A DNA stretch of 55,922 nucleotides from positions 1 through 55,922 of the IMG/VR virus record IMGVR_UViG_3300025154_002045; one strand, 5' to 3'. The notes below the pieces were generated by a model that saw only the letters and a list, made by a program, of their open reading frames with translations, searched no databases and was not told the origin of the DNA. The DNA is from a virus. The position numbers were made by a program, and so were the translations under genes. Position 1 is the stretch's first letter, and every line of letters begins with the position of its first letter. Positions 2,499-46,537 of this stretch are shown piece after piece.

Positions 2499-2536
2499 AT
2501 GATAGCAAATTAGTAAAGATTAAGCAACTTTGCTTA
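2499..2536 (-). promoter_or_regulatory. Repressor promoter with operator O1
   Basis: On the minus strand a -35 TTGCTT (2522-2527) and a -10 TATCAT (2499-2504) are 17 bp apart and point at the repressor. A perfect 16-bp operator, TAAGCAA-CT-TTGCTTA (2521-2536), covers the -35. Weaker half-sites TTGCTTA occur at 2491-2497 and 2464-2470. The layout suits autoregulation of the repressor. Confidence 0.75.
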
Positions 2537-2552
2537 TCCACACCCCAATATA

Positions 2553-2581
2553 TTGACCTTGTAAGCAAAATTGCTTAATAT
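2553..2581 (+). promoter_or_regulatory. Early rightward promoter with operator O2
   Basis: The -35 TTGACC (2553-2558) and -10 TAATAT (2576-2581) are 17 bp apart. The perfect operator TAAGCAA-AA-TTGCTTA (2562-2577) fills the spacer, so bound repressor would exclude RNA polymerase. It drives the Cro-like gene and the replication genes behind it. O1 and O2 centres are 41 bp apart, about four helical turns. Confidence 0.82.
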
Positions 2582-2611
2582 GACTGTAGGGGTCTAAAAG
2601 TTAAACAATTT

Positions 2612-2818
2612 ATGAACAAAGCACCAGTGAATATAAAACTCCGTGACCTTCGAATCAAGAAAGGGCTAACGCAATACAAGCTAGCCCGAATTCTTGGTTT
2701 TAAGCACAACACTGCGATCAGCCGGTACGAGACAGGACGGAAGCGTCCGAATCTCGAAACAGCCCAGCGGATCGCTTTGGCTCTCGGAGTCAGAGTAGAG
2801 GAAGTTTTCTTGCCGTAG
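2612..2818 (+). CDS. Cro-like HTH protein
   Basis: A 68-residue single-domain HTH_3 protein (LRDLRIKKGLTQYKLARILG ... ISRYETGRKRPNLETAQRIA) with no dimerisation or peptidase domain, transcribed away from the CI-like repressor. By position and size it is the Cro counterpart of the switch and should compete for the same TAAGCAA/TTGCTTA operators. It is the first gene of the early rightward operon. Confidence 0.85.
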   Translation: MNKAPVNIKLRDLRIKKGLTQYKLARILGFKHNTAISRYETGRKRPNLETAQRIALALGVRVEEVFLP

Positions 2819-2871
2819 GCAAGGTGGGGTCAAAAAAAGTGTGAGGTCACTTCTATGAACCAAACCACCGC

Positions 2872-3150
2872 ATGTCCAAACCAGCAAAAGACGAGGAAGC
2901 TCTTATTGAGCTTACTCACAATGCTCTCGCCGAAGTTCTCGGACGGGAGCCTACTAAGCAGGAAGTTTGGAAAGTCCATGCTGGCTTTAAGCGCATGGCG
3001 TTCATGCTTTTGGATCACATGGATCACATCAAAAAACATGACAACAAAAATCCTGATCAAGAGACTTATCCGAAGGATGTGGACTCGGATGACTCGGAAA
3101 CCGCCGACGAGGAAGGAACTTCTTTGGAGACGGGAGAGTCTACTCCGTAA
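2872..3150 (+). CDS. Small acidic early protein, unknown function
   Basis: A 92-residue protein I do not recognise. The first 55 residues look helical (ALAEVLGREPTKQEVWKVHAGFKRMAFMLLDHMDH) and resemble small early phage regulators. The last 35 are strongly acidic and probably disordered. It lies between the Cro-like gene and the replication gene, within the early operon. An overlapping frame that starts 17 bases earlier has worse composition and was not chosen. Expression is likely from its position, not from homology. Confidence 0.6.
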   Translation: MSKPAKDEEALIELTHNALAEVLGREPTKQEVWKVHAGFKRMAFMLLDHMDHIKKHDNKNPDQETYPKDVDSDDSETADEEGTSLETGESTP

Positions 3151-3342
3151 TTTCACAATCCGGGAACTCGAAAATCCAACTATGCGACGAGACTTCTGCC
3201 GAGCGATGGACAACATCGATCGAGCCCTACCCAAGTCCAAAGAATGGTAGACGGCGTCTTACTCTCCCCTCAATGGCGCCAGACGGTGATGGGAGGAATA
3301 AGGCGCGGTCTGGTCAACCATTCGCCTTTATTATTCGTTGCC

Positions 3343-3885
3343 ATGTCAGATGAAAAAATAAAAGTTAGAGATTTAAGAAATGGCGATTGGTATTGGATCA
3401 ACAAAGTACTCCTCGATGAGTACGGAGAGAAACTCAAGCCGATCGGCATCGCAATTTATAACTGCCTGGCGGCACATGCTAATCAGGAGGGTTTTTGTTT
3501 TCCATCACACAAGCACATTGCCAACAAAATAGGAGCCAGCATCTCGAGCGTGCAAAGAGGCATCCGGCAACTTATCAAACTGAATCTCATTCGCAAAGGC
3601 CGACAACGATATCACAACCTCTACTACCTCTTAAAACTAGATAGGTCACACAGACCGACCTCAAAAGAGATCGGTCAGTCAGACCGGCACATCGGTCATA
3701 CAGACCGGTCAGATCAGTCAGCCGGAACTACTAACAAGAATAAAGAAAAAGATTTAAATAAAAAGAATTACGCTCGTGATCAAAAAACTGTGGATAACTT
3801 GGAGGAAATGAAAAGAGCACTGGCCAACAAGATGTCCATGAATAGCGGTAGGAAGCATTTAAGAACGGCAACGGATGAACCTTGA
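3343..3885 (+). CDS. Replication-initiator-like winged-helix protein with embedded origin
   Basis: A 180-residue protein with an N-terminal helix-turn-helix domain of the kind found in phage replication initiators (HTH_36/DnaD-like). Visible segments are VLLDEYGEKLKPIGIAIYNC, FPSHKHIANKIGASISSVQRG and LIKLNLIRKG. The middle, around residues 100-130, is low complexity and rich in S, D, H and R because the DNA there is made of short palindromic repeats; the C-terminus is basic. I start it at the ATG at 3343, since the upstream extension in this frame lacks recognisable sequence. Coming just after the Cro-like and small early genes, it takes the place of O in a lambdoid early operon. The repeats inside it support an initiator that binds within its own gene. 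The exact family is not certain. Confidence 0.72.
   Translation: MSDEKIKVRDLRNGDWYWINKVLLDEYGEKLKPIGIAIYNCLAAHANQEGFCFPSHKHIANKIGASISSVQRGIRQLIKLNLIRKGRQRYHNLYYLLKLDRSHRPTSKEIGQSDRHIGHTDRSDQSAGTTNKNKEKDLNKKNYARDQKTVDNLEEMKRALANKMSMNSGRKHLRTATDEP
3644..3771 (+). repeat. Candidate replication origin: iterons plus AT-rich tract inside the initiator gene
   Basis: Three copies of the dyad GGTC-N5-GACC lie at 3644-3656, 3673-3685 and 3694-3706; the last two extend to CGGTC-N5-GACCG. An imperfect fourth follows at about 3707-3723. Directly after them, 3727-3770 is purine-rich with only about seven G or C in 44 bases. Iterons followed by an AT-rich unwinding tract inside an initiator gene is the lambda O layout. 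Function is inferred. Confidence 0.62.
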
Positions 3886-3948
3886 AAAGCAATTGATCGT
3901 TCGGAAGTCGTCGAACCCGAACCATTGATTATTTATTAATTAACCACC

Positions 3949-4082
3949 ATGAACGAGGATTTCTGCGGCCGAGCCCGATAAGGAACTGGTGAATGCAATT
4001 CACTCTTTCCCGACCCGAGGTTCTCCGTTGCCAGGTATAGAACCAACAACAGCTTATCGGGCTGGCATCAGAGAACCTCCGG
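3949..4082 (+). ncRNA. Structured RNA element with interleaved helices (HDV-like topology candidate)
   Basis: An 11-bp helix pairs 3972-3982 with 4053-4063. A 9-bp helix pairs 4017-4025 with 4071-4079 and interleaves with the first, so the fold is a pseudoknot. A 6-bp hairpin with loop GCA sits at 3989-4003. A short GTTG/CAAC pairing (4027-4030 with 4047-4050) is possible, as is pairing of CC at 4031-4032 with GG at 4064-4065, right after the first helix. The 5' part also contains a possible 10-codon leader (3949-3981) whose stop codon lies in the first helix. No known riboswitch was recognised. It lies between the initiator-like gene and a zinc-ribbon gene. Confidence 0.5.
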
Positions 4083-4665: not shown

Positions 4666-5487
4666 TCATAAATAGCTGGGAGCATATTTTTGATACTGGT
4701 TCTTGTCGACAAAGATTATGGAATTGACGTAGTGAAGTGTGGTCTCTAGCAAAGTATGTCTAAGCTGTCTGTTTAAGGCCACCAGATTAGCTCCCCGGAG
4801 AAGCATATTCGCTGACATTGAATGTCTTAGTAGATGCGGATACGTTCTTTTGCTTATCCTAGCTCTTTTAGCCAAAACATGAACAAGCTTCCTTAAATCT
4901 TGTCCCTTGTAATTATTTTGCATCCTAAGGGTGGTGAAAAGAAAATCGTCTTCCGTTCTCGGATATTTTTCCAGATACTCGAAAACAACTTTTGTGCATT
5001 CAGGGGGTATCTCCGAAATCCCATCCTTGAAACCCTTACCGCTCACAACTCTCACAGCGTTTTGAGCATACAGAAAATCTTTTTTTCTAAGATTGCAAAG
5101 CTCTTTATTTCTTAGCCCTGAATAAGCAAGAAGTGAGATAATTGCCTTCTCTCGAACATTTTTGGAACTAAATATGAGAGTGGTGATCTCCGCTTCAGTG
5201 AGAGTATCCTTCATCATCGGCTTTGGCTTTTTTTGTCTGCCCAGCTTGATCGGGTTACCAATAAATTTCATATACTTTTCTATCGCCAAGGACGTGTTCA
5301 GCTTATAACTATAAGAGAATGGCGAAGTGTAAAAAGCATAAACATAATTTTTTACTTTTTCGTGATCAGGATACTCACCAATAGATTCAATCAAGCGCCT
5401 TGCACCACCTACGTAACCATGAACCGTAATTTCTGATAGACCCTCATCCACAACCAAAAACCGCTCAAACATTGTTTTATTTGTCAT
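4666..5487 (-). CDS. Tyrosine recombinase (XerC/D-like integrase)
   Basis: A 273-residue phage-integrase-family protein with all the main catalytic signatures: SGLRNKEL (Arg I), HLLRHS (His-x-x-Arg II), a second RHTLLETTLHY histidine box, and the tyrosine nucleophile in LHYVN. The N-terminal SAM-like core-binding domain spans residues 1-90. It is the last gene of the minus-strand cargo block, separated from the next gene by 107 bp with two hairpins. The prophage already has a serine integrase, so this enzyme may have brought in the cargo island or may resolve a local site. Full length and apparently intact. Confidence 0.9.
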   Translation of the reverse strand: MTNKTMFERFLVVDEGLSEITVHGYVGGARRLIESIGEYPDHEKVKNYVYAFYTSPFSYSYKLNTSLAIEKYMKFIGNPIKLGRQKKPKPMMKDTLTEAEITTLIFSSKNVREKAIISLLAYSGLRNKELCNLRKKDFLYAQNAVRVVSGKGFKDGISEIPPECTKVVFEYLEKYPRTEDDFLFTTLRMQNNYKGQDLRKLVHVLAKRARISKRTYPHLLRHSMSANMLLRGANLVALNRQLRHTLLETTLHYVNSIIFVDKNQYQKYAPSYL

Positions 5488-5519
5488 CTTTATTGTTGTT
5501 AATTTGTAATTAATAAAAA

Positions 5520-5581
5520 TACCCCCTGGCTAAGCCAAAGGGTATCTTTATGGAGAATTCCGCAAGCGTGGCTTTGCCACG
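5520..5581 (-). terminator. Two hairpins between the nuclease and recombinase genes
   Basis: Hairpin one pairs TACCC/GGGTA plus TGGC/GCCA (5520-5544). Hairpin two is CGTGGC-TTT-GCCACG (5567-5581). They lie in the 107-bp gap after the PD-(D/E)XK gene and could reduce read-through into the tyrosine recombinase. Neither has a strong T-run. Confidence 0.45.
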
Positions 5582-5594
5582 AAAACTCACTAGA

Positions 5595-6119
5595 CTACGC
5601 TTTGAAATCCCAGTTATCCTCGTACTGTTCAGCGGTCGGAGTAGGTATCGGATACTGTTCTCCTTTTACGCCAAGCCGGAAAATACGCATCTCTCCATCC
5701 TTAACTTTCTTGCCCTCTTTTTTCTTCTCTCCCAGCCAGAGGGTGTGTTGACCTTTTACATAGTTCGCAACAACTTTGCTCGGAACAATATAAAACTTAA
5801 AAACATTGGTGTCTTTTGAAATGTTTACGAAACAGTAAAAGAGAGTCGGGATGTCGACCGTTTCGTTTTTCTTGCTCATGATCCATCCGCTTACAGACGA
5901 TCCGTGAACCTTTGAGACCGATGCCTTATTGCGACTGTTCTGAAAGTTAGTCTTTACTTCCATCTGGTATAGCTTTCCGGTGCGAGGATCAGAGACTAAA
6001 ATGTCGACACTCTTCGTGTGACCGAGTGTCATGTTTGCGTCGTATCCTCGCAAAGCAAGCTGTGATAGAACAGCAAATTCACCGGCGATAGATACTGAGT
6101 TTTTGTTGATTGAATTCAT
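5595..6119 (-). CDS. PD-(D/E)XK-like nuclease protein
   Basis: A 174-residue protein with a compact nuclease-like core: GEFAVLSQLALRGYDANM, then SVDILVSD and, after a short loop, YQMEVKTNF. The spacing matches the D ... E-x-K metal-binding pattern of the restriction-endonuclease fold. It lies 17 bp after the RecB-like gene in the cargo operon, which suggests a shared role in cutting foreign DNA. I see no DNA-binding domain of its own. Specific function is unknown. Confidence 0.65.
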   Translation of the reverse strand: MNSINKNSVSIAGEFAVLSQLALRGYDANMTLGHTKSVDILVSDPRTGKLYQMEVKTNFQNSRNKASVSKVHGSSVSGWIMSKKNETVDIPTLFYCFVNISKDTNVFKFYIVPSKVVANYVKGQHTLWLGEKKKEGKKVKDGEMRIFRLGVKGEQYPIPTPTAEQYEDNWDFKA

Positions 6120-6136
6120 GGGCTTATTGTTAAAGA

Positions 6137-6889
6137 TTACTTATATTTGTTAATTGTCTCGACGTACTGACAATAATCGCAATCCGGCTTACCGGCTGGA
6201 ATAGCATCGCCATTGAGACACTTGTGAGCGTCGATGAGTGCTTTTTCTACCCATGAATCATCGCCGGTGTACGGGATCAAAGTGATATCGAAGTCTAGCT
6301 TCGCATCGAATGCCTCACGGTCAGACTTCCCATTGCAGTAAACGAAATATCCAGTGCTGGAAACTTTCAATCCGTTACGGCGAAGCAACCACTGATACAC
6401 CTCCATCTGACGCTTATATCCAATCTGCCATTCTTTATTAAGCTCGGTGATATCCTCGGCTTTGGAAGTCGCCTTATAGTCGACGACAATGTATTCACCC
6501 TGCGGACTTTGCCAGAGATCATCAATCGCACCGAACACTAAAAAGTTTGTCTCCGGATGCAGATACTGAATGCCGGTAAAATTGTGTCGCCACTTTTCCA
6601 ACTGCTCGTGAGGAATCGGTCGTGCATCAATCCCATACTTTTCGATAAGCGGATGCTTTGTACCGTTCGCACGATGGATATCAAACTCGGCTTTTAAGAG
6701 ATGGTCTACCGCCGAGTTTAGAGCGAATGGAAAGCCGGGTGGCCGTCCGACACCGAGTTTGCGATCGTAATAGAAGCAACGAGGACACTGCAAAGAAAGA
6801 TCAATCTTTGATCGTGATAGTTTGAACGGGTCCGACGATGCCGGATCATATAAACTTTTTACTCGTTGTGGTGTGTAGTATTCAGACAT
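6137..6889 (-). CDS. RecB/Cas4-type nuclease with probable Fe-S cluster
   Basis: A 250-residue PD-(D/E)XK superfamily exonuclease. Key segments are SLQCPRCFYYD near the N-terminus, FGAIDDLW and IVVDYKAT in the middle (the D and D-x-K metal ligands), a QMEVYQWLL motif behind them, and PDCDYCQY near the C-terminus. The two Cys-x2-Cys pairs bracketing the nuclease core match Cas4/AddB-type iron-sulfur ligands. I use the ATG at 6889, four bases after the PHP-SMC stop, because the longer form overlaps that gene. Its pairing with an SMC-like ATPase recalls nuclease-ATPase partners of the SbcCD or AddAB kind. Confidence 0.85.
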   Translation of the reverse strand: MSEYYTPQRVKSLYDPASSDPFKLSRSKIDLSLQCPRCFYYDRKLGVGRPPGFPFALNSAVDHLLKAEFDIHRANGTKHPLIEKYGIDARPIPHEQLEKWRHNFTGIQYLHPETNFLVFGAIDDLWQSPQGEYIVVDYKATSKAEDITELNKEWQIGYKRQMEVYQWLLRRNGLKVSSTGYFVYCNGKSDREAFDAKLDFDITLIPYTGDDSWVEKALIDAHKCLNGDAIPAGKPDCDYCQYVETINKYK

Positions 6890-6893
6890 AAAA

Positions 6894-9683
6894 TTAAAAG
6901 CCGTACTGATCCATACGCAATTTAAATGCGTCACGACCGCCCTCAGTGACGAGGATTATTTCTTCCTTAATTTCCTTTTTATCGATTGCACCCATAGCTT
7001 TGATTGATCCACGGGTCTGGTCGCCAGCTTTTATGTAATCGCAACACACTACAAGCTCGGCATCACCGTTCACGACAAAGTTCGCACTGTGGCTAGCGAA
7101 AATAAGCTGGCGTTTACTCTTAGCTCTCCAGACTTGCTGGACAATATCTTTGAACATTTTGCTGTCGATATCGTCTTCCGGCTGGTCAATGATGAGAGGC
7201 GCGCCCGGCTGGTTCAAAAGGACGGTAAGCAAAGCAGTAGCTTGCTGACCAGCTGATGCATCTGAAAATGCAATATAGTCTTTTTTCGTTTTGTTGGTGC
7301 AATAAGAAAACTTCGGATTAAATTGAAGCTCTGTAACGGAGAGATCGAGCCATCGAGCAGAGTCGAAGCTAGTCGCAATTCTCATGCGTTCGGTATCGAT
7401 AAAATTACATTTATTTAGAATCGGAGTATCCGGCATTTCATCCGGTCCCTCCGTAGAATGCAGTGCGAGTTTTTCAAGTTCCGAAAGAATACCATTCCAC
7501 TCAACAAATGGATCGCTGGCTTTCAATAGACATTGGCAGATTTTCTCAAGCTTCGCTTCATTGATATTCATGCCCGAAAAGGCGGTTTTAAGTTTTAGAG
7601 TAAGAGCGTCGGTGTCTAAACTATTCTTAATCTCTGCCTTAATGAGATCGCCAGAAAGTGCTGTGAACTGAGTACACTGCTTTTCAAGAGCCGTAATCTT
7701 TTGAGTATGCAAACCATCCCACTTCGTGCGAAGTTTTTTGTACACAGTTTCCGGGTCGCCAAGAGCCGCAAGTGCATTGCGTTTTTCCGTCTGTTGTTTT
7801 TTGAGTGCGGCGATACGCTTCTCAAGAGTTTGTATTTGATCGAGCTGTTGCTGGTTAACCTTAGCTTTTACTTTTGCGGCCTCGTATTTCTTATCAAATG
7901 CCACCTTGAGTTTTTCCCATTCTTTGATCTCGTCATTGATGGCCTTGAGTGATGCTGGCTTAAAGAGATTTGAGAGTGCAGTAACGCCAGCCTCTATTTC
8001 TGTAAACTTAGAAGCATATTTTTTTTGAATCCGACCGATCAGAGCTGTATTTTCTAGCTCAACCTCTTCCTCTTCCACCTCTTCACTTTCCAATGCTTCC
8101 ACAAGACCATTGACGTGTTCCTGTGTTGTTTCGAGCTCGTTTTTGAGACCCTCGATAATCGCTTCTTCGTTATCGTATTTTGCCTTCTGATCGATAACTT
8201 CCTGATCCTCTTTAGGCAACCCCTTGAGACTCTTGCGAAGTTTTCCAAGCTGTTCGGTTGATGAAGCTATCTCAACATTGTTTTTGTCGACTTCCGCTTC
8301 GATTTCCTTCATCCGGATTAAGTCACCATAAGCGGATCGCATCTTTGCTTCCGTGTCTCGTACATCCGAACGAATCTGATCGAGTTCCTGTTTGATTGGA
8401 AGCTCGACAAAACGCTTCAGCTCATCGATGCGTACACCTACGCTACTAAGCTGTTTCTGACTGTACGCTTGGATCGGAAGCAAATTGCGAACTTGCTGTT
8501 CTGTGGCCGGAGTGAATTCACCGTCGCCAATTTTAAGTAAAATTTCCTGCTTCTTTGAGTTACGTTTTACGATATGAGGAACGTCATTGAGCAGAAATTC
8601 CACATGCACCTCACCGTCAAATTTCTGGAGAGTATTGTCGATCAAATTCTTGCGTTTAGTCTGCACTATGTCCATGTCCTCGCTTTCTACCGGCTGATCA
8701 CAAAGACCCCAGCGGAGATATTCGAGGATTGTAGACTTGCCCGTACCACGACCACCGATGATGGCGTTGTACTGCTGGTTTAAATCAAAGCCAACCTGCC
8801 CAAGAAACTTGGAGTTTGTGACGCTGATTGAAGTGATCCAAAGATTCGGGAGTTCGGGTTCAACGAGAGAGACTCTGGATTCTCTAGCCAAACATGCCTG
8901 ACGGAGTGCCTCTGCAGTCGGCTCTGACCATTTGACGTAGGTGCTAGGTGATCCAAGATCGGAATGGTCACGCTTGCGGTTATCGGAAGTTTGAAAGACC
9001 GCAATCGGTTTGTACCCATTGTTTTGCTGACGTCCTTCAAGGATATTTTTGTAGCCGTCGCTAGACTTTGAATACTCACCATCAACATAACCGCCCACGC
9101 AACGCATCTCTTTGTAATGCTTTGCGAATCCATCACGGAAAAGAGTTTTATGTCCTGCAGTGGTGACGTTCGGGAGTATGATGAATTTTCCTTTAAGCCA
9201 AGGATGCTGATTCAGTCGTTCTTCGAGATCATTCAATCCCGTGATTGATGTCGGCGATACAGACTCAACACTTGCAAGTTTACTCTTAGCTAAATCCGTA
9301 GATGCAATAGTAAGTGTGGTGAGGATATCCCCGAATTTTGTCTCGTCGAAATCAGCGTCGAGCAAAAGTATTGCTTGGCATGGTGGAGATGAAAGAGTGA
9401 GCTCGATACCAGGAAAGACAACGATCTGATCCTTTGAATCAATAGATTCACCGATAAGATTAACTTCGGATGCGGCGGCCGCTTTTACATATGGGAACAT
9501 GCAAAAGTCATGGTGATCAGTTATCGCAATCGCATCGAGACCTTTTGCTCGGCACGCTTGAATAAGCTCATCTGCGTAAGCTTGGCGTTCTTTTGGTGTA
9601 GCGGCTTCCGCACCGTCCCAATTTGCATCTCGGGGAGTGTGAACTTGGAAGTCGCATTTGTAGAAGTGAGCGCCTTTATCCAT
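6894..9683 (-). CDS. PHP-SMC protein (TrlF-type AAA-like ATPase)
   Basis: A 929-residue fusion. Residues 1-270 are a PHP phosphoesterase-like domain (FQVHTPRD and AITDHHDF carry metal ligands). Residues 285-929 are an SMC/ABC-type ATPase with Walker A GGRGTGKST (310-318), a long coiled coil (about 430-700), a signature-like ASAGQQAT and Walker B LIIDQPEDD. This arrangement matches the TrlF family as I know it, which is found in defence and mobile contexts. It would hydrolyse ATP on DNA and may cleave phosphodiesters. It sits mid-operon, with four-base gaps to the nucleases on either side, which points to a shared complex or pathway. The AT-rich sequence before its ATG has no Shine-Dalgarno sequence. 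Confidence 0.88.
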   Translation of the reverse strand: MDKGAHFYKCDFQVHTPRDANWDGAEAATPKERQAYADELIQACRAKGLDAIAITDHHDFCMFPYVKAAAASEVNLIGESIDSKDQIVVFPGIELTLSSPPCQAILLLDADFDETKFGDILTTLTIASTDLAKSKLASVESVSPTSITGLNDLEERLNQHPWLKGKFIILPNVTTAGHKTLFRDGFAKHYKEMRCVGGYVDGEYSKSSDGYKNILEGRQQNNGYKPIAVFQTSDNRKRDHSDLGSPSTYVKWSEPTAEALRQACLARESRVSLVEPELPNLWITSISVTNSKFLGQVGFDLNQQYNAIIGGRGTGKSTILEYLRWGLCDQPVESEDMDIVQTKRKNLIDNTLQKFDGEVHVEFLLNDVPHIVKRNSKKQEILLKIGDGEFTPATEQQVRNLLPIQAYSQKQLSSVGVRIDELKRFVELPIKQELDQIRSDVRDTEAKMRSAYGDLIRMKEIEAEVDKNNVEIASSTEQLGKLRKSLKGLPKEDQEVIDQKAKYDNEEAIIEGLKNELETTQEHVNGLVEALESEEVEEEEVELENTALIGRIQKKYASKFTEIEAGVTALSNLFKPASLKAINDEIKEWEKLKVAFDKKYEAAKVKAKVNQQQLDQIQTLEKRIAALKKQQTEKRNALAALGDPETVYKKLRTKWDGLHTQKITALEKQCTQFTALSGDLIKAEIKNSLDTDALTLKLKTAFSGMNINEAKLEKICQCLLKASDPFVEWNGILSELEKLALHSTEGPDEMPDTPILNKCNFIDTERMRIATSFDSARWLDLSVTELQFNPKFSYCTNKTKKDYIAFSDASAGQQATALLTVLLNQPGAPLIIDQPEDDIDSKMFKDIVQQVWRAKSKRQLIFASHSANFVVNGDAELVVCCDYIKAGDQTRGSIKAMGAIDKKEIKEEIILVTEGGRDAFKLRMDQYGF

Positions 9684-9687
9684 AAAA

Positions 9688-10701
9688 TTAAGTAATCTTC
9701 AACTTACCTGACTTGAAGCCCTCGACTATGATCTTCATGCACTTATTAAAAGTACGCATGGCGTCACCTTTCAGTGGAGTATCCTGAATGCTCAAAAGTG
9801 CTTCTCGACATTCCTTATCGAGTCCGGCAATATCGTCCATTGTCTTGATTTCAACATTGGGCTCGTTTCGCAAAAGAAACCACTCTTTGTCTGTGGTTTT
9901 ACTGTGATCAAGGACTTCCAAGTCCTTGTGCGTCATTTTCGGGAATAGGTAATAAAACTTTTTATCGTAAAAATAATATTTTGTTAGAAACATCTCGCCA
10001 ACGGCGATATGTCCTGCACGTTGCGATCCGTCAGTGAAATTTCTACGCATGCGACCGGCATACTTGATGACATAGCCATCTTTAATGATGGTCGATCGTT
10101 GTTCTGCAAACTTCTCCCAATCTCCACCGTAAGCGGCGTTGAATTTAGTTATAAAAAGTTCGTGCATCTTTTCCAGATATGCATCGATATAAGCAGAAAA
10201 TGCAATGGGATTGTGGTAACACTCCAGCAAGTCTTTGACGACAGAGAGATCATCCGTAATTAAATATTTCCCTTTCTCTATCTTAGATGCAAAGTAAGCC
10301 ATGCCGTAGAGGTCGGGCTGTATTTTCTGTGTGCCTTTCTTTAAATAATAAACTCCGACAATGCCGTTCTTTACGCCACCCAGTGCATGATGAAATCTCT
10401 GATAGAGTGCATTACCGGCCGAGTTCCTACTTAGCGCATCAGTCCCTTCTAGCGCAATTACTGGCTTCTTGTTTATTTCTTTACCGTTGAGTCCATCAAC
10501 CCATTGTTCGTCTACATACCATGCGGCGTCACACGAACCGTAAGAAACACCCTCGAATCCAAAAGTAAGACCACCCTCTGAAAAGGACTTCTGATCCTCG
10601 TTGCTACTTTGTGGAAAGATTCGAAGTTTAATCCCTTTGGTTTCGTGACCAAGGGTGTCTAGAATCTCTCTTTTTATGATTTCGTCGCTGGAGTATGCCA
10701 T
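9688..10701 (-). CDS. Probable restriction-endonuclease-like protein, unrecognised family
   Basis: A 337-residue protein. The N-terminal third has GVSYGSCDAAWYVDE and then PVIALEGTDAL, which could supply D and E ligands of a nuclease core, although a clear E-x-K is missing. The next segment (GNALYQRFHHALGGVKNGIVG) is helical and looks well conserved. It is encoded between a PD-x-EAK nuclease and the PHP-SMC gene, with four-base gaps, in an operon that also holds two DNA methyltransferases. Context suggests the cutting partner of one of them. The function is inferred from neighbours. Confidence 0.5.
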   Translation of the reverse strand: MAYSSDEIIKREILDTLGHETKGIKLRIFPQSSNEDQKSFSEGGLTFGFEGVSYGSCDAAWYVDEQWVDGLNGKEINKKPVIALEGTDALSRNSAGNALYQRFHHALGGVKNGIVGVYYLKKGTQKIQPDLYGMAYFASKIEKGKYLITDDLSVVKDLLECYHNPIAFSAYIDAYLEKMHELFITKFNAAYGGDWEKFAEQRSTIIKDGYVIKYAGRMRRNFTDGSQRAGHIAVGEMFLTKYYFYDKKFYYLFPKMTHKDLEVLDHSKTTDKEWFLLRNEPNVEIKTMDDIAGLDKECREALLSIQDTPLKGDAMRTFNKCMKIIVEGFKSGKLKIT

Positions 10702-10705
10702 ATAG

Positions 10706-11788
10706 TTATAGGGATTTAATTTTCTCCAGAATCGCTTCCGTCTCCAACTCCAAGACGAAACTCACAAGGTCAGACTCCTTATTTATCTCTTCACCTTTCG
10801 ACTCCAGGTAGAACTGCTTAAGCTCGTCGTTCGTGAAATTTGAAATGAGATAAAACTTAATATAGTTCCCAAGCCAGACAGTGTACTCTTCCCGTGATAG
10901 TGGATTTTCCGCAGTATATTTTGTTGCGGGGAGTGTAATTTTTATTTTGAAATCGCCATCCAAACTGATTAAACCGAAGTAGTCCTTTGACGGCTTTGCC
11001 TTTGCCGGATGGATCTCGAATCCTTGATCAAACAATCCGGTGTTGAGATATTTTTCCAGCTGTTTGGTCATGACGAGATTGCCGGTTTTTGCCTCGCCGA
11101 CAATGAAGTCATGGGTGACATGATCACTCTCGTCCTTTGTTCCTTGCTTGAAGTTTCTAATAAGTGCCAACTCGATCATGTGGAAACCAGTGCTTGGGAG
11201 ATATCCGTAATTACTTATTTTTGTTATGAGCTCACTCAGACCATATCCGGCAAAGTCCGGAGAGCCTATCGCATGGGCGAGAGGTATTTGGTTCTCTACA
11301 ATGAAGCCAAGGTGTCGGAAGTATTCACCGGCAAGGTATTCCATAAAGGGTTCCATTCCATTGCCTTGCTTACTGGTCTCGATACGCTGGATGATGTAGT
11401 TTTCTCGGTCTTTTATGTGATCGAACTTTGTCTTAAGTAGATCGACTAATTTCTCTTCGGACTCAAACTCAATCGGGACGATATATTTATCGCCCTCAAA
11501 CAAATACTTCTTTGCTTGCGACAAAATGTACGGCGTGTTTTTGAGGACACCGTTGTCAAAAATACCCGATACGAATTTGTAATTAAACGCATTATAAAAA
11601 AGCTTCATCAATCCCTTTGGAGTGAAAGGATAGATCGGATTTTCAAAATACCCAGCACCAGTGATACTGCTATAAATAAAAGCTTCCTTCGCAGGCATTT
11701 TGACAGCCGGTCCCATTTCAGTATCGACAATCTCGAAATCGAAGTTGGCTTTAAATATATTGAAAAAATCTTTAGTGTAAATTTCCAT
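10706..11788 (-). CDS. PD-(D/E)XK restriction endonuclease candidate
   Basis: A 360-residue protein starting at the ATG at 11788, four bases after the methyltransferase stop; the longer frame runs back into that gene. The nuclease signature is visible in EYLAGEYFRHLGF, SPDFAGYG and FIVGEAKTGN, a PD ... E-A-K arrangement around residues 145-240. The N-terminal 130 residues are mixed alpha/beta and may provide target recognition. Directly following a DNA methyltransferase, it is most simply the restriction half of a type II-like pair. The recognition sequence cannot be read from the protein. Confidence 0.68.
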   Translation of the reverse strand: MEIYTKDFFNIFKANFDFEIVDTEMGPAVKMPAKEAFIYSSITGAGYFENPIYPFTPKGLMKLFYNAFNYKFVSGIFDNGVLKNTPYILSQAKKYLFEGDKYIVPIEFESEEKLVDLLKTKFDHIKDRENYIIQRIETSKQGNGMEPFMEYLAGEYFRHLGFIVENQIPLAHAIGSPDFAGYGLSELITKISNYGYLPSTGFHMIELALIRNFKQGTKDESDHVTHDFIVGEAKTGNLVMTKQLEKYLNTGLFDQGFEIHPAKAKPSKDYFGLISLDGDFKIKITLPATKYTAENPLSREEYTVWLGNYIKFYLISNFTNDELKQFYLESKGEEINKESDLVSFVLELETEAILEKIKSL

Positions 11789-11792
11789 AAAA

Positions 11793-13421
11793 TTATACGT
11801 GTTGTAATTTAAATAAGCTTTGCTGAACCTCTTTTTTTTTCTGCTCACGCTTCTCCTCCCGAGGAACATCCTGAAAGAGATTCGTGATGTTTTCAATACT
11901 CATCCTTTCGTGCTCGGCGACCTGAGAGCCATCAAAAATCTTGCTGATCACAACACCCACGAATAGATCGTATGCCTTGTTCAGATTAAAGAGCTTGTCA
12001 TTATTCTTGCCAAGGCATTTGACGATCTCATCCGCAATTTCGTCAGGGTAGATCGCTTTTTTATTTGTCGCCGGTGCTTTCTTTTGAGAATTTACAAAAG
12101 TCACGTAGAAGTCCGACTTAGGCGAAAACTTAGCCCAGTTTTTGTTGTAAGGACTGCCAAATGTGTCGTAAGAGGAAATGTCCACCAACTCCATGCCATG
12201 ATCCCTAATGAGCTCGGCAAGACTGATCCAGATTTTCAAATCTTTATTGTGGAAAGCAAGAGTAAAATAAGCATCTTTTTTGAGAACCCTTTTTGCCTCA
12301 CCAATAAAGGCGGTGAGCTGATCATAGTATTCGTTTACTCCTTTTTTCTGGACAGGATTTATAATGACCTCGTCCTCAATTTCAAACGCCTTCTCAAGCC
12401 AGCAATTCCAGATATACGAAAGTTCTGAGTATTGGATCGTGTCACCGTATGGAGGGTCAGTAATCAAATAATCCACGCTAGACGGTTTTACTTCCGCCAT
12501 CTTCAATGAGGATTTGTTGTAAATTTTGGACGAGGGTTTCGAGACCTTGTTTCGGGAAGCCTTCTCTGAGATCACAACCTTCGCCATTTTTACATTGTCG
12601 ACACGATCAACAAACCTCCACCACACATTCTCTTCGATAAAGTCGTCCGGAATCCAAAAGTTATTTACGCCAAGAGGACGAACATTCTCTGCTTTTAATT
12701 TGCTCACATGCAATAGGGTGTTGGTGAAAGCGAGCATGAACAAGTCTCTGTTTTTCAGAGGTAATTCTTTGATAGCGGTATGAAGCGTTGCCAAAGCAAA
12801 GAGATTCCTCTTTGTAAACATGTCCGACACTTTCTTTACTCCCTTATACGAAAACCGATCCTTATAGAATTTCTCCGGAAAGTCCATATCCGGATACTTC
12901 AAGCTTTTAGGAAATTTTACAGTCGGCTCTAGATCGTCTTGTGTGAGACTAACTTTTTGTTTATTCCGGAAACTACTGTCGGCGATCACTGCGTTATAAT
13001 CCTTGCTGTTTTTCTTTCCGAGAATGGTGTACAGAATATACTTATCTTTTGTCGTGTAGAGAGGCATTATTTTCTCCCTTACAGCTTTCTCGATTACCGA
13101 AAATTCGTCCTCGAAAGAAACCGGATCGTAGCTTACATCCATAGAGTTTTTTGCCAAAAAGACGGCAAAGGGATTGAGATCGTAGCCGATGAAGTTTCTG
13201 TCGGCCAAGACTGACTGCAATCCTATAATTCCGCTACCACAAAACGGGTCCAAAACGACATGATCCTTTTTGGAGTATTTTTCGATGTATTGATCGACAA
13301 CAAACCAGGGTTTCCTCGACCAATACTTGTGAAGCTTTGCGACGCGCGAATACTGACGATCGTGTTTGATATCGTTTACGTCGACAAGGTTCTTTACGAT
13401 TTGTGAAATGGTTAATGACAT
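11793..13421 (-). CDS. DNA methyltransferase (DPPY type)
   Basis: A 542-residue S-adenosylmethionine-dependent DNA methyltransferase. KLHKYWSRKPW precedes motif I (VVLDPFCGSGIIGLQS), then comes a long central region likely holding target recognition, then motif IV DPPYGDTIQYSELSYIW. The KYWSRKPW opening resembles large DUF1156-like methylases. The product is an exocyclic amino methylation (N6-adenine or N4-cytosine). One base separates it from the preceding methyltransferase gene and four bases from the following nuclease, so all three are co-translated or nearly so. Confidence 0.88.
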   Translation of the reverse strand: MSLTISQIVKNLVDVNDIKHDRQYSRVAKLHKYWSRKPWFVVDQYIEKYSKKDHVVLDPFCGSGIIGLQSVLADRNFIGYDLNPFAVFLAKNSMDVSYDPVSFEDEFSVIEKAVREKIMPLYTTKDKYILYTILGKKNSKDYNAVIADSSFRNKQKVSLTQDDLEPTVKFPKSLKYPDMDFPEKFYKDRFSYKGVKKVSDMFTKRNLFALATLHTAIKELPLKNRDLFMLAFTNTLLHVSKLKAENVRPLGVNNFWIPDDFIEENVWWRFVDRVDNVKMAKVVISEKASRNKVSKPSSKIYNKSSLKMAEVKPSSVDYLITDPPYGDTIQYSELSYIWNCWLEKAFEIEDEVIINPVQKKGVNEYYDQLTAFIGEAKRVLKKDAYFTLAFHNKDLKIWISLAELIRDHGMELVDISSYDTFGSPYNKNWAKFSPKSDFYVTFVNSQKKAPATNKKAIYPDEIADEIVKCLGKNNDKLFNLNKAYDLFVGVVISKIFDGSQVAEHERMSIENITNLFQDVPREEKREQKKKEVQQSLFKLQHV

Positions 13422-13422
13422 A

Positions 13423-14445
13423 TTATTTCTTTTGGAATACTAAGCAGTAATGATGCAAGATATTGCTTGCCCATGCTGAAGGGTATCCGTAGGGTGCAAG
13501 TCCGACTTTATCCTGTATCCAGAGCTTCTCGTCTTTGAGCACATACTTCTTCGAAAGAAGCCGTGCCAAGTCCCACGCCAATGGATACATTTTACCTTCT
13601 TTCTTTATATTCTTCACAATCACCACGAGGTAACCTCCGTCCTTCAGTAAATCGAAAATATCAAAGTATATATTCGCCAATTTCTCCAAAAAGAGATCGT
13701 AGTCGGCAATGTTGCCCAAGTCCTCTGCGGCTTCCGAGTAATTAACATCGAGACCATCCTTAGTTCTGTCTTTTTTGAAATCTTTTGTGCTTCTATTCAA
13801 CACATCCCAATACGGTGGTGATGAGATCGAGAAAGCGATTTTAGGAAGCTTTAATTTTTTGATGTTTGCGGCATTTTCGTTAAAGATAGTCTTTTTGAAT
13901 TCCGGAGTCCGCTTGAGAGATAGATCGTAGTATTTTTTGTTGAGCTCTATACCATATCCAATTCGGCCGGTTCGCTTACAAGCGACCATCGTGCTTCCAA
14001 TTCCACAGAACGGGTCCAACACAGCTTCACCTTTTTTGGTAAAGAAATTTATAAATCCCTCAATCATCGTCGGCGAGAATGTTGCAGGATGATCTTCGGT
14101 GTTCGGCGATATTTCTCGCTCTTCTTTTAAATCCTTATGTAAAGCATTGAAAATAAACCAGCTGCAACTAAATTTTACCCACTCTTTTCCTGTCATCTCA
14201 TTGAGTGGATTGGATAGATCGTAAGCACCGTCTTCCGGATTAATTAAAATGGCGTTGGCTTTTTCAACATCACCACCTGGGTTATACAAAGCAACTTCTG
14301 CCCATCTCTCAATAAAGTGGTCAGGTATTAACTCCTTTTTGTTCTTAAGGAGGTGAGCAAGTTTCTTTTTTGCCAGTTTGTTTTTTTCCTCGTCTAAGAC
14401 GGGTACAACTTGCTTTTTATCTTTGTAGTAAAAGTGGGATTTCAT
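13423..14445 (-). CDS. DNA methyltransferase (SPPY type, probable N4-cytosine)
   Basis: A 340-residue methyltransferase that begins at the ATG at 14445; a longer form would overlap the RadC-like gene heavily. Motif I is AVLDPFCGIGSTMVACKR and motif IV is ISSPPYWDVLNRS. SPPY is typical of N4-cytosine methylases. The N-terminal 100 residues have no recognised domain. Paired head-to-tail with a DPPY methyltransferase, it suggests a system that protects two strands or two sites. Intact by length and motifs. Confidence 0.85.
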   Translation of the reverse strand: MKSHFYYKDKKQVVPVLDEEKNKLAKKKLAHLLKNKKELIPDHFIERWAEVALYNPGGDVEKANAILINPEDGAYDLSNPLNEMTGKEWVKFSCSWFIFNALHKDLKEEREISPNTEDHPATFSPTMIEGFINFFTKKGEAVLDPFCGIGSTMVACKRTGRIGYGIELNKKYYDLSLKRTPEFKKTIFNENAANIKKLKLPKIAFSISSPPYWDVLNRSTKDFKKDRTKDGLDVNYSEAAEDLGNIADYDLFLEKLANIYFDIFDLLKDGGYLVVIVKNIKKEGKMYPLAWDLARLLSKKYVLKDEKLWIQDKVGLAPYGYPSAWASNILHHYCLVFQKK

Positions 14446-14452
14446 AATTGAT

Positions 14453-14956
14453 TTATTCTGCTGGAATATATTCCTGATGACCGCATCTGCATGCCGTACC
14501 ATCGTTAGTGGCCATGCTGAAGTACGATTTCTTAGCAACGATAATAAAGTCTTCAAAGAATGGCTTGAACGACAAAACCTGCGAGTCTGCTTGCAGTGCT
14601 CGCATAAGTTTCTTGTCATCCTCATCCGGAGTCGGATCAGTAGAGCCGGGATGATTGATTAAGATCATGAACTTCTTTGCAAGGAATAGAGAGAAGTAAT
14701 GCCAGAGCATTTGCGTATCGAGATTCTTGGGGGAGGAACCAAGAAAGACCTGATGTCCGAGGAACAGGTTTCGGTCGTCGAGATAGATTCCAATCACTTT
14801 GGAAACACTTTCGTCTTCCAAGTCTTTGAGAAATTTGTACAGGTCTTCCGGATCACGAACCTGACCCTGAATCGGAAGCTCTACATCGGTCTCAACGATC
14901 TCATATTTCTTGAGGTATCGTTTTCCATCATCATTTTTGTGTTCAACGTTTTTCAT
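14453..14956 (-). CDS. RadC-like JAB/MPN-domain protein with altered metal site
   Basis: A 167-residue protein resembling the C-terminal RadC (JAB1/MPN+) domain: VIGIYLDDRNLFLGHQVFLG, LWHYFSLFLAKKFMILINHPGS, TPDEDDKKLMRALQ and FIIVAKKSYFSM. RadC normally has HxHP before a proline and aspartate. Here the first histidine is replaced (INHP), so zinc binding is probably weakened. The tail adds CRCGH. RadC-like proteins are common in mobile and defence loci, where their role is unsettled. I chose the second methionine (14956), since the first candidate is a TTG. Confidence 0.75.
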   Translation of the reverse strand: MKNVEHKNDDGKRYLKKYEIVETDVELPIQGQVRDPEDLYKFLKDLEDESVSKVIGIYLDDRNLFLGHQVFLGSSPKNLDTQMLWHYFSLFLAKKFMILINHPGSTDPTPDEDDKKLMRALQADSQVLSFKPFFEDFIIVAKKSYFSMATNDGTACRCGHQEYIPAE

Positions 14957-14976
14957 AGGCAATTTCCAAAGTTAAT

Positions 14977-16053
14977 TTATAATTTGACGTACCTCGTGCC
15001 TCGGCCACGCCCGACTCGTTTGACTAGTCCGAGTTCTATCAATCTCTCCAATGCCTGACTGACTGTAACTCCTACAATGCCGGTGGCCTTGGCGATATCA
15101 CCAGGAGCGGCCTCGCCAACAGATGTGAGATATTTCCATACCTCGTACTGCTTGGGAGAAAGGGTGTCTTCGACTTTTTCCTCTTCCAGATACGAGAGAG
15201 CCTTTGTTGCTTGCTCTCGCACGACTGACAAAAAGAAATTAAGCCACGGCGAGATAGTGTCGTGATCAGTATTGAATGTTTCCTGCGACTTGCGGAGTGC
15301 CAAATAGTATTCGTCCTTGCGACGCTCGACGATTTGCTCGTGCGACACATACTGAACGAATTGATAACCAGATCGGAGTAGCAAAAGGTTCGTGAGCACA
15401 CGGGAAAGACGCCCATTGCCGTCTTCAAATGGGTGGATTTTCAAAAACTCAACGATAAAGTTTGAAATCAGAAGCAAAGGATGAAAGCGGTTCTTTTCAA
15501 ACGCATCATTTGTCCATTCAAGAAGCTCCTGCATTTCCTTTGCAGTAAGATATGCCGGTGTAGTCTCGAACATGATCTTGGCGACTTTGCCATCCGGTCC
15601 AAGTACGCCGACCGTGTTCTCTTTCTTTTTGTAACCGCCACGATGCACATCGTCTTTGTTGGAATATTTGAGAAGCTGATTGTGGAGTGATGTGACCACA
15701 CTCTCTCGAAGTGGCAAAGTCTGGAAAGAGTCAAAAACATTCTGAAGCACTTCAAGATAACCCTGCACTTCCTGCGAGTCTCGATCGGAAAACTTTGAGA
15801 CCGCAAGACCCTGCATTATTTTTTCTACTTCCTCATCGGTAAGCTTTGCACCCTCGATACGAGTGGACGCACCTGCAGAAGTAATAAGCACCGACTGCTT
15901 CAAGCTAGTGATCGCTTGCGGAGTCATTCGCAGACCCGACTTAAATTCACCTCGAATACCATCGATCTCAGCCAAGAGAGCGACAATGTGTGGTTCGGGA
16001 CTTTTGATCCTGTGATCGAATTTGTTTGTAATATTGTCCATAAGATTACTCAT
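14977..16053 (-). CDS. Fic AMP-transferase-like protein with winged helix
   Basis: A 358-residue Fic protein, first gene of the minus-strand cargo operon. The Fic core motif HPFEDGNGRLSR is complete, so transfer of AMP or another nucleotide onto a protein target is expected. An N-terminal inhibitory motif of the S-x3-E-G form (STRIEG, about residues 64-69) should block ATP placement until released. The C-terminal 70 residues form a winged helix (PGDIAKATGIVGVTVSQALERLIELG) likely to bind DNA. Its start codon lies within a palindrome at 16048-16090, which suggests autoregulation of the whole operon. Confidence 0.92.
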   Translation of the reverse strand: MSNLMDNITNKFDHRIKSPEPHIVALLAEIDGIRGEFKSGLRMTPQAITSLKQSVLITSAGASTRIEGAKLTDEEVEKIMQGLAVSKFSDRDSQEVQGYLEVLQNVFDSFQTLPLRESVVTSLHNQLLKYSNKDDVHRGGYKKKENTVGVLGPDGKVAKIMFETTPAYLTAKEMQELLEWTNDAFEKNRFHPLLLISNFIVEFLKIHPFEDGNGRLSRVLTNLLLLRSGYQFVQYVSHEQIVERRKDEYYLALRKSQETFNTDHDTISPWLNFFLSVVREQATKALSYLEEEKVEDTLSPKQYEVWKYLTSVGEAAPGDIAKATGIVGVTVSQALERLIELGLVKRVGRGRGTRYVKL

Positions 16054-16090
16054 ATAGGTTATATATGTGATTATATGGGATTATATGAGT
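16048..16090 (-). promoter_or_regulatory. Palindromic operator candidate at the head of the cargo operon
   Basis: ACTCATATA (16048-16056) and TATATGAGT (16082-16090) form a 9-bp inverted repeat; further TATATG half-sites lie between them. The Fic start codon is part of the left arm. A protein with a winged-helix end encoded directly from this site is a natural binder. Binding is inferred. Confidence 0.6.
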
Positions 16091-16759: not shown

Positions 16760-16803
16760 TATTCGCAACCCTCTTGCGAATAAAATGTTCGTAGTGATAT
16801 AAT
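16760..16803 (+). promoter_or_regulatory. Late operon promoter with upstream hairpin
   Basis: An extended -10 TG-A-TATAAT (16795-16803) lies 18 bp after TTGCGA (16774-16779). The -35 falls in the right arm of a perfect 9-bp inverted repeat (16760-16768 with 16774-16782) that could be an operator. This is the only strong promoter seen ahead of the 21-kb structural gene block. Confidence 0.68.
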
Positions 16804-16824
16804 AAATTCACAATCGAATAACTT

Positions 16825-16912
16825 AATGCCTCAAGGGGCATTCCTGAAAGGGATTCCGAGTTTAAGGGCTCGTGACCAATCGCTTAATTGCGAACGGTCA
16901 CGAGCCCTTTTT
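16825..16912 (+). terminator. Late leader with hairpins ending in a strong terminator
   Basis: Two small hairpins (AATGCC/GGCATT at 16825-16842 and ATTCC/GGGAT at about 16840-16853) precede a 14-bp GC-rich stem (16864-16877 with 16896-16909) and a T-run at 16908-16912. The terminator lies about 100 bases downstream of the late promoter and 156 bases before the first gene. The remaining stretch to 17068 holds no convincing gene. Such a layout fits antitermination control of late genes. Confidence 0.75.
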
Positions 16913-17068
16913 CGTTATCCGATTGTTTCCAGCTCCCTGATACCTCTCGGTCGAACATCCACTAGCTGTGATCGACCTCACACTGCACGGGACTCACGGG
17001 TTTCGTGTACATAAAAAAATTTCACAGCGGATGAGGGGGTGTCAGAGAGCTGGAACAATAAATATTTT

Positions 17069-18088
17069 ATGTTTAGCAAATTTCAATCATTACCAAGTTA
17101 CTTCGGCGGCAAGCGAAAGCTGGTCAAGTATATTTTTAAGCCGATCAAAAAGACCGAAGGAGTTTTTATAGACGCTTTTCTTGGCGGTGGATCAGTAAGT
17201 CTCTACGCCAAAGCAAAAGGATACAAAGTTATCGCAAACGACATCGCATTCCGATCCGCCATTATCGGCCGGGCCCTGATTTCCAACAACAGCGTAAAGA
17301 TTGAGACCGAGGATTTGGCGAGACTCTTCCTCGATGTTAAGCACGACGGCTTTATTCGCAAGAATTATTGCCCGAAAGTATTCACCAGCAAGATCGCCGA
17401 CTTCCTCGACACCGCAATCGTGAACGCACGAGCGGTCGAGAACGAAACCAAGCGACATCTCCTCCTGCACCTCCTCATAAAGTTTATTTTGTCCTGCCGA
17501 CAATTTGGAAAATTCACGCACACCAGAGACACGCTCGATCTTGAAGCTCGCAAATGGGAGTGGCCGCTCCGGTCCAAGTCTCATGCACCGAAAAACCTCC
17601 GCATGATCCAAAATCCGATGATGACTTTGGAAAAATTAAAAGACGAAATTAATCATGGCGTTTTCGATAATCATCAAGACAATGAAATACACCAAAAAGA
17701 CGTGTTCGAATTTCTCAAGAAAGTTACTGGTGATGTTGCTTATTTTGATCCTCCTTATCCTGGCTCTTCTTCCTACGAGGTTGAGTATGGGATCTTGGAT
17801 AACATCCTCGCCGGAAAAAAGCTCGACAACAAACCCAGTCCCTTCTCCAACAAAGATGCCGACGAATTTCTAGAGCGGATGTTCGAGTCGGCAAAGCACA
17901 TTCCGCAATGGGTTATCTCCCTCGGCCAGAACAAAGAGGACGTGGGAGTAAAGCCGGAGAAGCTTCTCGCAATGGTGCAGAAGCACCGCAAAGCGGAAGT
18001 GCAGATGCTCGATCACAAGTGGTCGGTATCGAACGCCGGAGGTCGAGGCCAAACAGACAACATTGAGTACATGATCGTAACCATATGA
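17069..18088 (+). CDS. D12-class N6-adenine DNA methyltransferase
   Basis: A 339-residue Dam-like (MethyltransfD12) enzyme: SYFGGKRKLV and FIDAFLGGGSVSLYA bind S-adenosylmethionine and AYFDPPYPGSSSYE is the catalytic DPPY motif. It should methylate the N6 of adenine in a short DNA site. I start it at the ATG at 17069; an in-frame GTG at 17039 is the alternative. It is the first gene of the late operon and overlaps the ParB-like start by four bases (ATGA). Methylation beside packaging genes could mark phage DNA for protection or for packaging initiation. Confidence 0.9.
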   Translation: MFSKFQSLPSYFGGKRKLVKYIFKPIKKTEGVFIDAFLGGGSVSLYAKAKGYKVIANDIAFRSAIIGRALISNNSVKIETEDLARLFLDVKHDGFIRKNYCPKVFTSKIADFLDTAIVNARAVENETKRHLLLHLLIKFILSCRQFGKFTHTRDTLDLEARKWEWPLRSKSHAPKNLRMIQNPMMTLEKLKDEINHGVFDNHQDNEIHQKDVFEFLKKVTGDVAYFDPPYPGSSSYEVEYGILDNILAGKKLDNKPSPFSNKDADEFLERMFESAKHIPQWVISLGQNKEDVGVKPEKLLAMVQKHRKAEVQMLDHKWSVSNAGGRGQTDNIEYMIVTI

Positions 18089-18894
18089 CAAAACCAACAG
18101 CACAAATCAAGACAGTGAAAATTAAGGAATGCATTCCGAACTCTTGGAATCCCAACGAGATGAATGCACGCCAATTTACGTCGCTCAAGAAAGCGGTCAC
18201 CAAGTTCGGACAAACGAAGCCGATCCAAGTTGGCGTCTGGCCGAACATGAAAGTGAAAGATGGCTATGTCATTGTCGGCGGTTACCACACATGGAAAGTG
18301 CTGGGTGAACTAGGTAATACGGACATCGAAGCAAACGTCCACGAATTCAAAAGCGAGGACGAAGCGAAGCTTTACGGTTTGACCGACAACATTCACGGGT
18401 CCAACCAGCAACTGAAACTCGGTAAGCTCGCATACGAGCTGACGCAGAATGGCTACTCGATAAAAGAGATCGCAAGCAATCTCGGTGAGGAGGATATCAA
18501 CGTTAAGGATGCACTCGACCTCGTGAAAGATGAGATCGCAAAGAAAATGGTCGAGCTCAAGAATGCCGAGCGTGAGAACTTTGTCGCCCTGAACTTTATC
18601 GTCGACAAAGACCCGAAAGAAGCGGCCGATGATTTTATTACTGCCGTCACTGCCTTTGCCAAAACCAAAGGCGTGAAAGTCGCTAAGGCGACCAAGGACG
18701 TGAACGGCCAGAGAGAAACGATCGCCCTCTTGAGCTTCAACGTGACCAATCCGCAAAAGACGGTGATCGACGACGCACTCGCACACATCGCAAAGGTCGA
18801 GGGTGTGAGCGAGAGCAAGGCATTAGAGCATATTTGCTCGCAATTCCTGTTGACCATATCTGACCTTAACTCACCGAAACATGGCAAAAATTGA
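18085..18894 (+). CDS. ParB N-terminal-domain protein
   Basis: A 269-residue protein whose first 100 residues are a ParB/Srx-like domain (IPNSWNPNEM, then VIVGGYHTWKVL at the nucleotide-binding position), followed by a helical middle with an HTH-like segment (NGYSIKEIASNLG) and an unassigned C-terminal domain. ParB-type domains bind CTP or act as nucleases. It is translationally coupled to the methyltransferase before it and overlaps the TerS start. Its position right before the terminase points to a packaging role, not partition; no ParA gene is visible. Confidence 0.8.
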   Translation: MTKPTAQIKTVKIKECIPNSWNPNEMNARQFTSLKKAVTKFGQTKPIQVGVWPNMKVKDGYVIVGGYHTWKVLGELGNTDIEANVHEFKSEDEAKLYGLTDNIHGSNQQLKLGKLAYELTQNGYSIKEIASNLGEEDINVKDALDLVKDEIAKKMVELKNAERENFVALNFIVDKDPKEAADDFITAVTAFAKTKGVKVAKATKDVNGQRETIALLSFNVTNPQKTVIDDALAHIAKVEGVSESKALEHICSQFLLTISDLNSPKHGKN

Positions 18895-45194: not shown

Positions 45195-45195
45195 A

Positions 45196-46533: not shown

Positions 46534-46537
46534 ACAC

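Follow-up and report, generated by a model that had tools for sequence, protein, structure and literature searches.

The virus record IMGVR_UViG_3300025154_002045, analysed over its full length of 55,922 bases and called the window below, carries a minus-strand operon in which a four-gene restriction-modification (R-M) cassette stands immediately before the gene for an ATPase of the TrlF family. The nine named genes of the operon are all present in the expected order on this strand and free of internal stops, namely, Fic, RadC-like, M1, M2, RE1, RE2, TrlF, a Cas4/RecB-like iron-sulphur (Fe-S) nuclease and a small PD-(D/E)XK-like protein. A reading made earlier from the sequence alone had placed these genes in one direction, and this was borne out, as was the listed order. 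The starts of four genes were corrected: M1 to 14445 (340 residues), RE1 to 11788 (360 residues), the Cas4-like gene to 6889 (250 residues) and RadC to 14956. The features of the locus are as follows.

14977-16053, minus strand: Fic protein of the AMPylator type, first gene of the frame (Pfam Fic, 4e-16; HPFEDGNGR; C-terminal winged helix)
14453-14956, minus strand: RadC-like JAB-domain protein, 167 residues, frame gene (Pfam RadC, 2e-8)
13423-14445, minus strand: M1, amino-methyltransferase, start of the cassette (N6_N4_Mtase, 6e-23; DPFCGIG and SPPY)
11793-13421, minus strand: M2, amino-methyltransferase (N6_N4_Mtase, 1.5e-18; DPFCGSG and DPPY; MTase_II, 151 bits in PADLOC)
10706-11788, minus strand: RE1, PD-(D/E)XK nuclease-like protein (PDFA-x50-GEAK)
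9688-10701, minus strand: RE2, tentative second restriction subunit, end of the cassette (assigned by position alone; CDAAW...ALEGT)
6894-9683, minus strand: TrlF family PHP-ABC ATPase, 929 residues (NF045780)
6137-6889, minus strand: Cas4/RecB-like Fe-S nuclease (PDDEXK_1, 3.7e-14; Cas4 models)
5595-6119, minus strand: small PD-(D/E)XK-like protein, 174 residues, last gene of the operon (VDILV...EVKT motif, found by reading)
5495-5594, minus strand: hairpin resembling an intrinsic terminator at the end of the operon (folding energy -37.5 kcal/mol, z = -6.0; a T-rich run comes next)
4666-5487, minus strand: tyrosine recombinase, outside the transcription unit (Phage_integrase, 6e-22)

The cassette M1-M2-RE1-RE2 occupies 9688-14445, and its G+C content is 40-42%, compared with 44-49% in the surrounding genes. 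The genes from M1 to the Cas4-like nuclease are tightly packed, with 1 base between M1 and M2 and 4 bases at each of the M2-RE1, RE1-RE2, RE2-TrlF and TrlF-Cas4-like junctions; these exact values match the gaps of one to four bases read earlier from the SPPY methyltransferase through the RecB-like nuclease. Wider gaps are found between Fic and RadC (20 bases), RadC and M1 (7 bases), and the Cas4-like gene and the small PD-(D/E)XK-like gene (17 bases). At the 3' end, 107 bp containing the hairpin and T-run separates the operon from the tyrosine recombinase. The left edge proposed before, at 4666, had to be moved, because it falls in this recombinase gene, which had not been listed and lies beyond the strong terminator; the last gene of the operon is that at 5595-6119. 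In the Candidatus Nomurabacteria prophage L012, a Phage_integrase gene is likewise located 3' of the TrlF block, and the tyrosine recombinase is possibly the mobility gene of the cargo.

Both M1 and M2 have intact S-adenosylmethionine-binding and catalytic motifs, as required of Type II R-M methyltransferases. M1 is predicted to be an N4-methylcytosine methyltransferase, and distant relatives of M2 are found on plasmids. RE1 has a conserved PD...EXK motif and matches no Pfam restriction family or PADLOC model; because its PDFA and GE(A/V)K elements are kept in a Patescibacteria protein that is only 31% identical (L084), it is a good nuclease candidate. That protein is the single RE1 relative among 380 Patescibacteria, on a 3.4-kb contig without useful neighbours, and no relative was found on plasmids. 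RE2 matches no Pfam, NCBIfam or PADLOC profile and gave no useful match to a solved structure; no relative was found in the 380 Patescibacteria, 395 genomes of a second phylum, phages or plasmids, nor among 20 TrlF-carrying or related genomes and records. A search of solved structures with RE1 also returned nothing useful, and the single-sequence AlphaFold2 models of RE1 and RE2 (mean confidence score, pLDDT, 37) were unusable and were left out of the fold searches. By short exact peptides, no relative of RE1, RE2, M2 or TrlF was confirmed in IMG/VR. The possibility that RE1 and RE2 are homologous subunits was rejected, as their sequences are unlike each other.

A Type II system that recognises an asymmetric site would be expected to comprise two methyltransferases and one or two restriction subunits, and BbvCI, Bpu10I and BsrDI are two-methylase, two-subunit Type II R-M systems. 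The two methyltransferases and two candidate restriction genes of the cassette resemble these systems by inventory alone; in contrast to them, RE1 and RE2 are unlike each other and fall in no Pfam restriction family. Weak PADLOC matches, mad2 for M1/M2 and mad3 and mad8 for TrlF, recall the methylation-associated defence system (MADS), but the scores are low, the gene set is different and no further MADS component was found. The PADLOC and NCBIfam profiles agree with the sequence-only reading that the set as a whole corresponds to no named system.

An exchangeable cassette in sister prophages

By aligning the window with L009, a sister prophage in a Candidatus Kaiserbacteria genome, the borders of the cassette can be located. 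The two prophages share 83-84% DNA identity on both flanks (window 2295-3965 and 16793-19515), and within the operon the TrlF segment at 6890-9685 aligns at 87% and the RadC-Fic segment at 14492-16085 at 77%, while 9686-14491 remains unaligned. In L009, the RadC stop is followed by the TrlF start after 2 bases. Consequently, the block present in the window but not in L009 is M1-M2-RE1-RE2, and M1 is missing from L009 at both the nucleotide and the protein level. The comparison is compatible either with gain by the window or with loss by L009.

The nearest TrlF relatives extend this picture. L012 carries, one after the other, Fic, type III Mod, type III Res, TrlF, a Cas4-like gene and the phage-integrase-family gene. 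Among the close relatives of the window TrlF, a DpnII endonuclease precedes TrlF in L010, HpaII with a 5-methylcytosine (m5C) methylase precedes it in L013, and no restriction gene stands alongside it in L011. Since the neighbourhoods of L009-L013 differ, the window TrlF and its five nearest relatives all have different upstream settings. The locus thus has a constant frame, Fic-RadC-TrlF (with the Cas4-like gene here and in one relative), and an exchangeable R-M cassette between RadC and TrlF. Gene content, gene order, cassette boundaries and the presence or absence of the cassette in the sister prophages are direct observations, and it is highly probable that the operon is a modular composite of R-M and TrlF.

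Fic, the first gene of the frame, is 78% identical to the copy in L009 and 77% identical to that in L012, and it scores 148.6 bits with the SoFic-like model of PADLOC. The RadC-like protein is 79% identical in L009, where its gene adjoins TrlF. The usual JAB motif is HxHP; in the window protein the motif reads NHPG, with the first histidine missing, and for this reason it may not be a working metalloprotease. A comparable arrangement occurs in an Omnitrophota locus (L075:3367-10468), in which RadC has a type I methylase/specificity gene on one side and TrlF on the other, as in the frame of the window. The Cas4-like protein carries CxxC...CxxC, GAIDD, VDYKA and QMEVY motifs, and a 65% identical gene lies immediately 3' of TrlF in L012. 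It misses the Cas4 equivalog cut-off (32.3 bits against 65), so despite its Fe-S cysteine pairs and nuclease motifs it is called Cas4/RecB-like only; a solved-structure search gave nothing useful. The 174-residue PD-(D/E)XK-like protein matches unnamed phage families only and has no Pfam, NCBIfam or PADLOC profile match.

The wider setting is that of a prophage. The left end of the record carries tRNA-Ser, a serine-type phage integrase, a CI-like repressor and a replication initiator, and past the island follow a methyltransferase, a ParB-like protein, a terminase, a portal and an SU10-type major capsid protein. Because the sister prophage sits in a Kaiserbacteria genome, the host is very likely a member of the Patescibacteria, bacteria with tiny genomes, and the window is thus very likely a prophage from this group. 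The locus is a prophage cargo slot with a modular defence operon, and the slot is variable, since L009 has metal-handling genes there. In L009:7276-15175, 3' of TrlF, membrane, DsbA-like and metal-handling genes are found and no nucleases; the metal-handling genes are P-type ATPase-like and multicopper-oxidase-like, as assigned by reading. At the other end of the window (40738-55922), a second serine recombinase (40738-42108) precedes the HsdR (42168-45194) and HsdM (46538-48979) genes of a type I R-M set, and a second terminase large subunit lies at 49989-51557. The record is probably two tandem prophages joined, each with its own restriction cargo.

TrlF and its restriction partners

The TrlF protein of the window matches the TrlF family model TrlF_fam_ATP (NF045780) over nearly its full length (residues 3-928) with 495.3 bits against a cut-off of 350, and it has the same layout as the family, an N-terminal PHP domain followed by an ABC ATPase. 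The Walker A, signature, Walker B and H-loop motifs (G310, G313, G315, K316, S810, G812, Q813, D833, E836, H865) are invariant in 70 TrlF sequences and are also present in Ppl. In a search of solved structures, only SMC heads and coiled coils were matched. The family name apparently comes from the temperature-restricting locus of Photorhabdus, in which no role of trlF was shown (PMC7554251).

A characterised relative of TrlF is the anti-phage protein Ppl (NF042955). Its model also scores on the TrlF protein; the two share the combination of a PHP domain and an ABC ATPase, a common C-terminal ATPase region and the same D11, H15, D56, H57, E94 and D234 positions. TrlF reaches only 169 bits with this model, however, against a cut-off of 1000, and the one Ppl gene examined has no adjacent R-M gene.

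A TrlF-alignment scan of one genome per species (84,980 species) gave 75 loci from many phyla, to which plasmid loci were added. A tight neighbour was defined as a co-directional gene ending at most 50 bp from the TrlF start, and only co-directional open reading frames (ORFs) were considered, because the gene caller produced spurious antisense ORFs in high-G+C loci. A tight upstream neighbour was found in 21 genome and plasmid loci, which include close relatives and are not all independent, and 18 of these are restriction operons, with the restriction gene either in that position or in the same operon. The partners span types I, II, IIG, III and IV: by Pfam they are HpaII, Eco29kI, an EcoRI-type methylase (twice), Eco57I, MmeI, Mrr, type III Res and HsdS, with NgoFVII and an m5C methylase in a further locus. 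The HsdS of L057 was assigned from the likeness of its operon to a scanned locus, and type III Mod-Res, annotated or closely similar, is present in four loci. The remaining three neighbours are RadC (L009), a TIR protein (L044) and an unclassified fragment (L050). In L044 (Aurantimonas), the slot is taken by a partner unrelated to restriction, the TIR-domain gene at 9015-9995, which stops 5 bp short of TrlF. In an Agrobacterium plasmid (L003:5650-7968), a fusion of an Mrr nuclease and an nSTAND3 NTPase lies 32 bp upstream of TrlF.

On the TrlF tree, at least 18 changes in R-M linkage and at least 10 in R-M type are required. An N6_N4 or N6 methylase occurs within about 10 kb of 6 of 40 TrlF genes, where at most 0.75 would be expected (Poisson P = 1.3e-4); the baseline of this test is genome-wide density, that is, random genes and not defence genes, so that taken alone it leaves defence-island clustering possible. 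The tight co-directional spacing argues more directly against such clustering. The plasmids also show the TrlF position varying behind a single R-M system: one type III Mod-Res (Res 86-100% identical) has TrlF behind it on four plasmids and nothing comparable there on plasmids of Acetobacter and Ancylobacter, and on a Sphingomonas insulae plasmid (L089:7948-12134) an AAA ATPase and a McrBC component lie 10 bp 3' of it. The position behind type III Res resembles a slot for accessory genes. Restriction systems of unrelated kinds repeatedly have TrlF as an exchangeable partner, and this pairing is observed directly; no account of TrlF as a general R-M partner was found in the open-licence literature searched.

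A possible end-triggered role of TrlF

From the gene content we infer how methylation, cutting and an end-triggered action of TrlF might be connected. M1 and M2 would mark each strand at host sites, and unmarked incoming DNA would be cut by RE1, with RE2. The cut ends would then serve as a shared signal: TrlF, an SMC/Rad50-like ATPase with a PHP domain, would recognise ends made by any enzyme and, aided here by the Cas4-like nuclease, would degrade the cut DNA or block its repair. End sensing would be the simplest common signal, because the restriction partners of TrlF share no subunit and have only the DNA end in common as a product. Ppl is reported to be a 3'-5' single-stranded DNA exonuclease that requires free 3'-OH ends and loss of nucleotide inhibition (PMC12904381). 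The best overall explanation, and one that we regard as moderately probable, is a modular R-M and TrlF operon in which TrlF acts on restriction-made ends. That TrlF itself is an end-triggered follow-up nuclease is put forward more tentatively.

Several observations weigh against this explanation. In the PHP domain, TrlF has Q13, N172 and R236 where Ppl has histidine at putative ligand positions, and these residues are nearly or fully invariant across the 70 TrlF sequences; owing to these replacements, TrlF may not be a Ppl-like exonuclease, and its PHP domain could be a changed nuclease or a regulatory site. The restriction role of RE2 is drawn from its position alone, the searches brought up no relative of the M1-M2-RE1-RE2 cassette as a whole, and the Cas4-like gene is 3' of TrlF in two loci only. 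Furthermore, TrlF has no adjacent upstream gene in 33 of 72 loci, about half, and is thus probably able to act without linked R-M.

The altered PHP site would suit a role other than DNA exonuclease, and on this point a different function of TrlF has to be considered, in which it is a back-up effector like PrrC or RloC, kept silent, or triggered when phage anti-restriction disables the R-M enzyme, and then stops growth. There are precedents for such a guard: PrrC and RloC are both ABC ATPase toxins; a type Ic R-M enzyme linked to PrrC keeps it silent until an anti-restriction peptide of a phage sets it free, and DNA breaks activate RloC (PMC3874168). Like PrrC (EcoprrI type Ic R-M) and RloC, TrlF is an ABC ATPase effector gene attached to R-M operons, in which it comes last. 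It differs from PrrC in having a PHP domain and no anticodon nuclease domain, and whereas PrrC has been reported with type Ic only, TrlF is found with many R-M types. The partners HsdS, Res, Eco29kI, HpaII, DpnII, MmeI and Mrr have no common subunit, so that silencing contacts would have been reinvented each time, and TrlF is often unlinked to R-M genes; such a guard role is considered possible but rather unlikely. It is also unlikely, and a little more so, that R-M genes and TrlF are adjacent merely because they gather in shared hotspots. The variable cargo slot, the often solitary TrlF and the Fic and RadC genes without an obvious role in the operon would fit such a pile-up, but in loci of many phyla the last R-M gene and TrlF are read in the same direction with less than 50 bp between them, and the tight partners of TrlF are restriction genes in 18 of 21 cases and not defence genes drawn at random (a TIR gene occurs once). 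A chance pile-up of independent systems, which the sequence-only reading had named as the outcome that would count against it, is not what the neighbourhoods show: restriction neighbours predominate, and methyltransferases near TrlF exceed the genome-wide density.

The same reading had suggested a single multi-part restriction system, its two methylases giving protection from a nuclease-ATPase complex. A multi-part defence operon composed of a two-methylase R-M part and TrlF is retained from this proposal; its integration into one system is not, as the cassette is exchangeable, TrlF, RadC and Fic persist without it in L009, and TrlF has unrelated R-M partners elsewhere. A single dedicated system, with TrlF and the nucleases in one complex specified by the two methylases, would account for the uniform 4-bp gaps and TAATTTTATG-like junctions that run from M2 through to the Cas4-like gene, and for the single terminator, which stands behind the last operon gene. 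It is nevertheless very improbable, because the sister prophage lacks the cassette with the rest intact and close TrlF relatives adjoin type III, DpnII or HpaII systems.

With the modular operon and a TrlF acting on restriction-made ends as the preferred explanation, a broader proposal is possible, and we hold it somewhat more loosely than the follow-up nuclease role: TrlF, a PHP-SMC-like ATPase plugged in behind restriction systems of every type, may be a universal second-stage restriction effector that would turn any cut into irreversible destruction of the invader, the prophages shuffling the recognition cassette and keeping the effector. To our knowledge, the phage defences of Patescibacteria have been little studied. 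This prophage family shows one cassette exchange at single-gene resolution, and the window and L009 provide a clean natural comparison of sister prophages with and without the cassette. The main interest is broader than one locus and lies in the partnership of TrlF with unrelated restriction systems. Restriction enzymes are usually regarded as self-sufficient; if one ATPase is indeed recruited behind types I, II, IIG, III and IV, this would imply a common need after the cut, for example, to keep restricted phage DNA from being repaired or to guard against anti-restriction, and TrlF would be a handle on that need.

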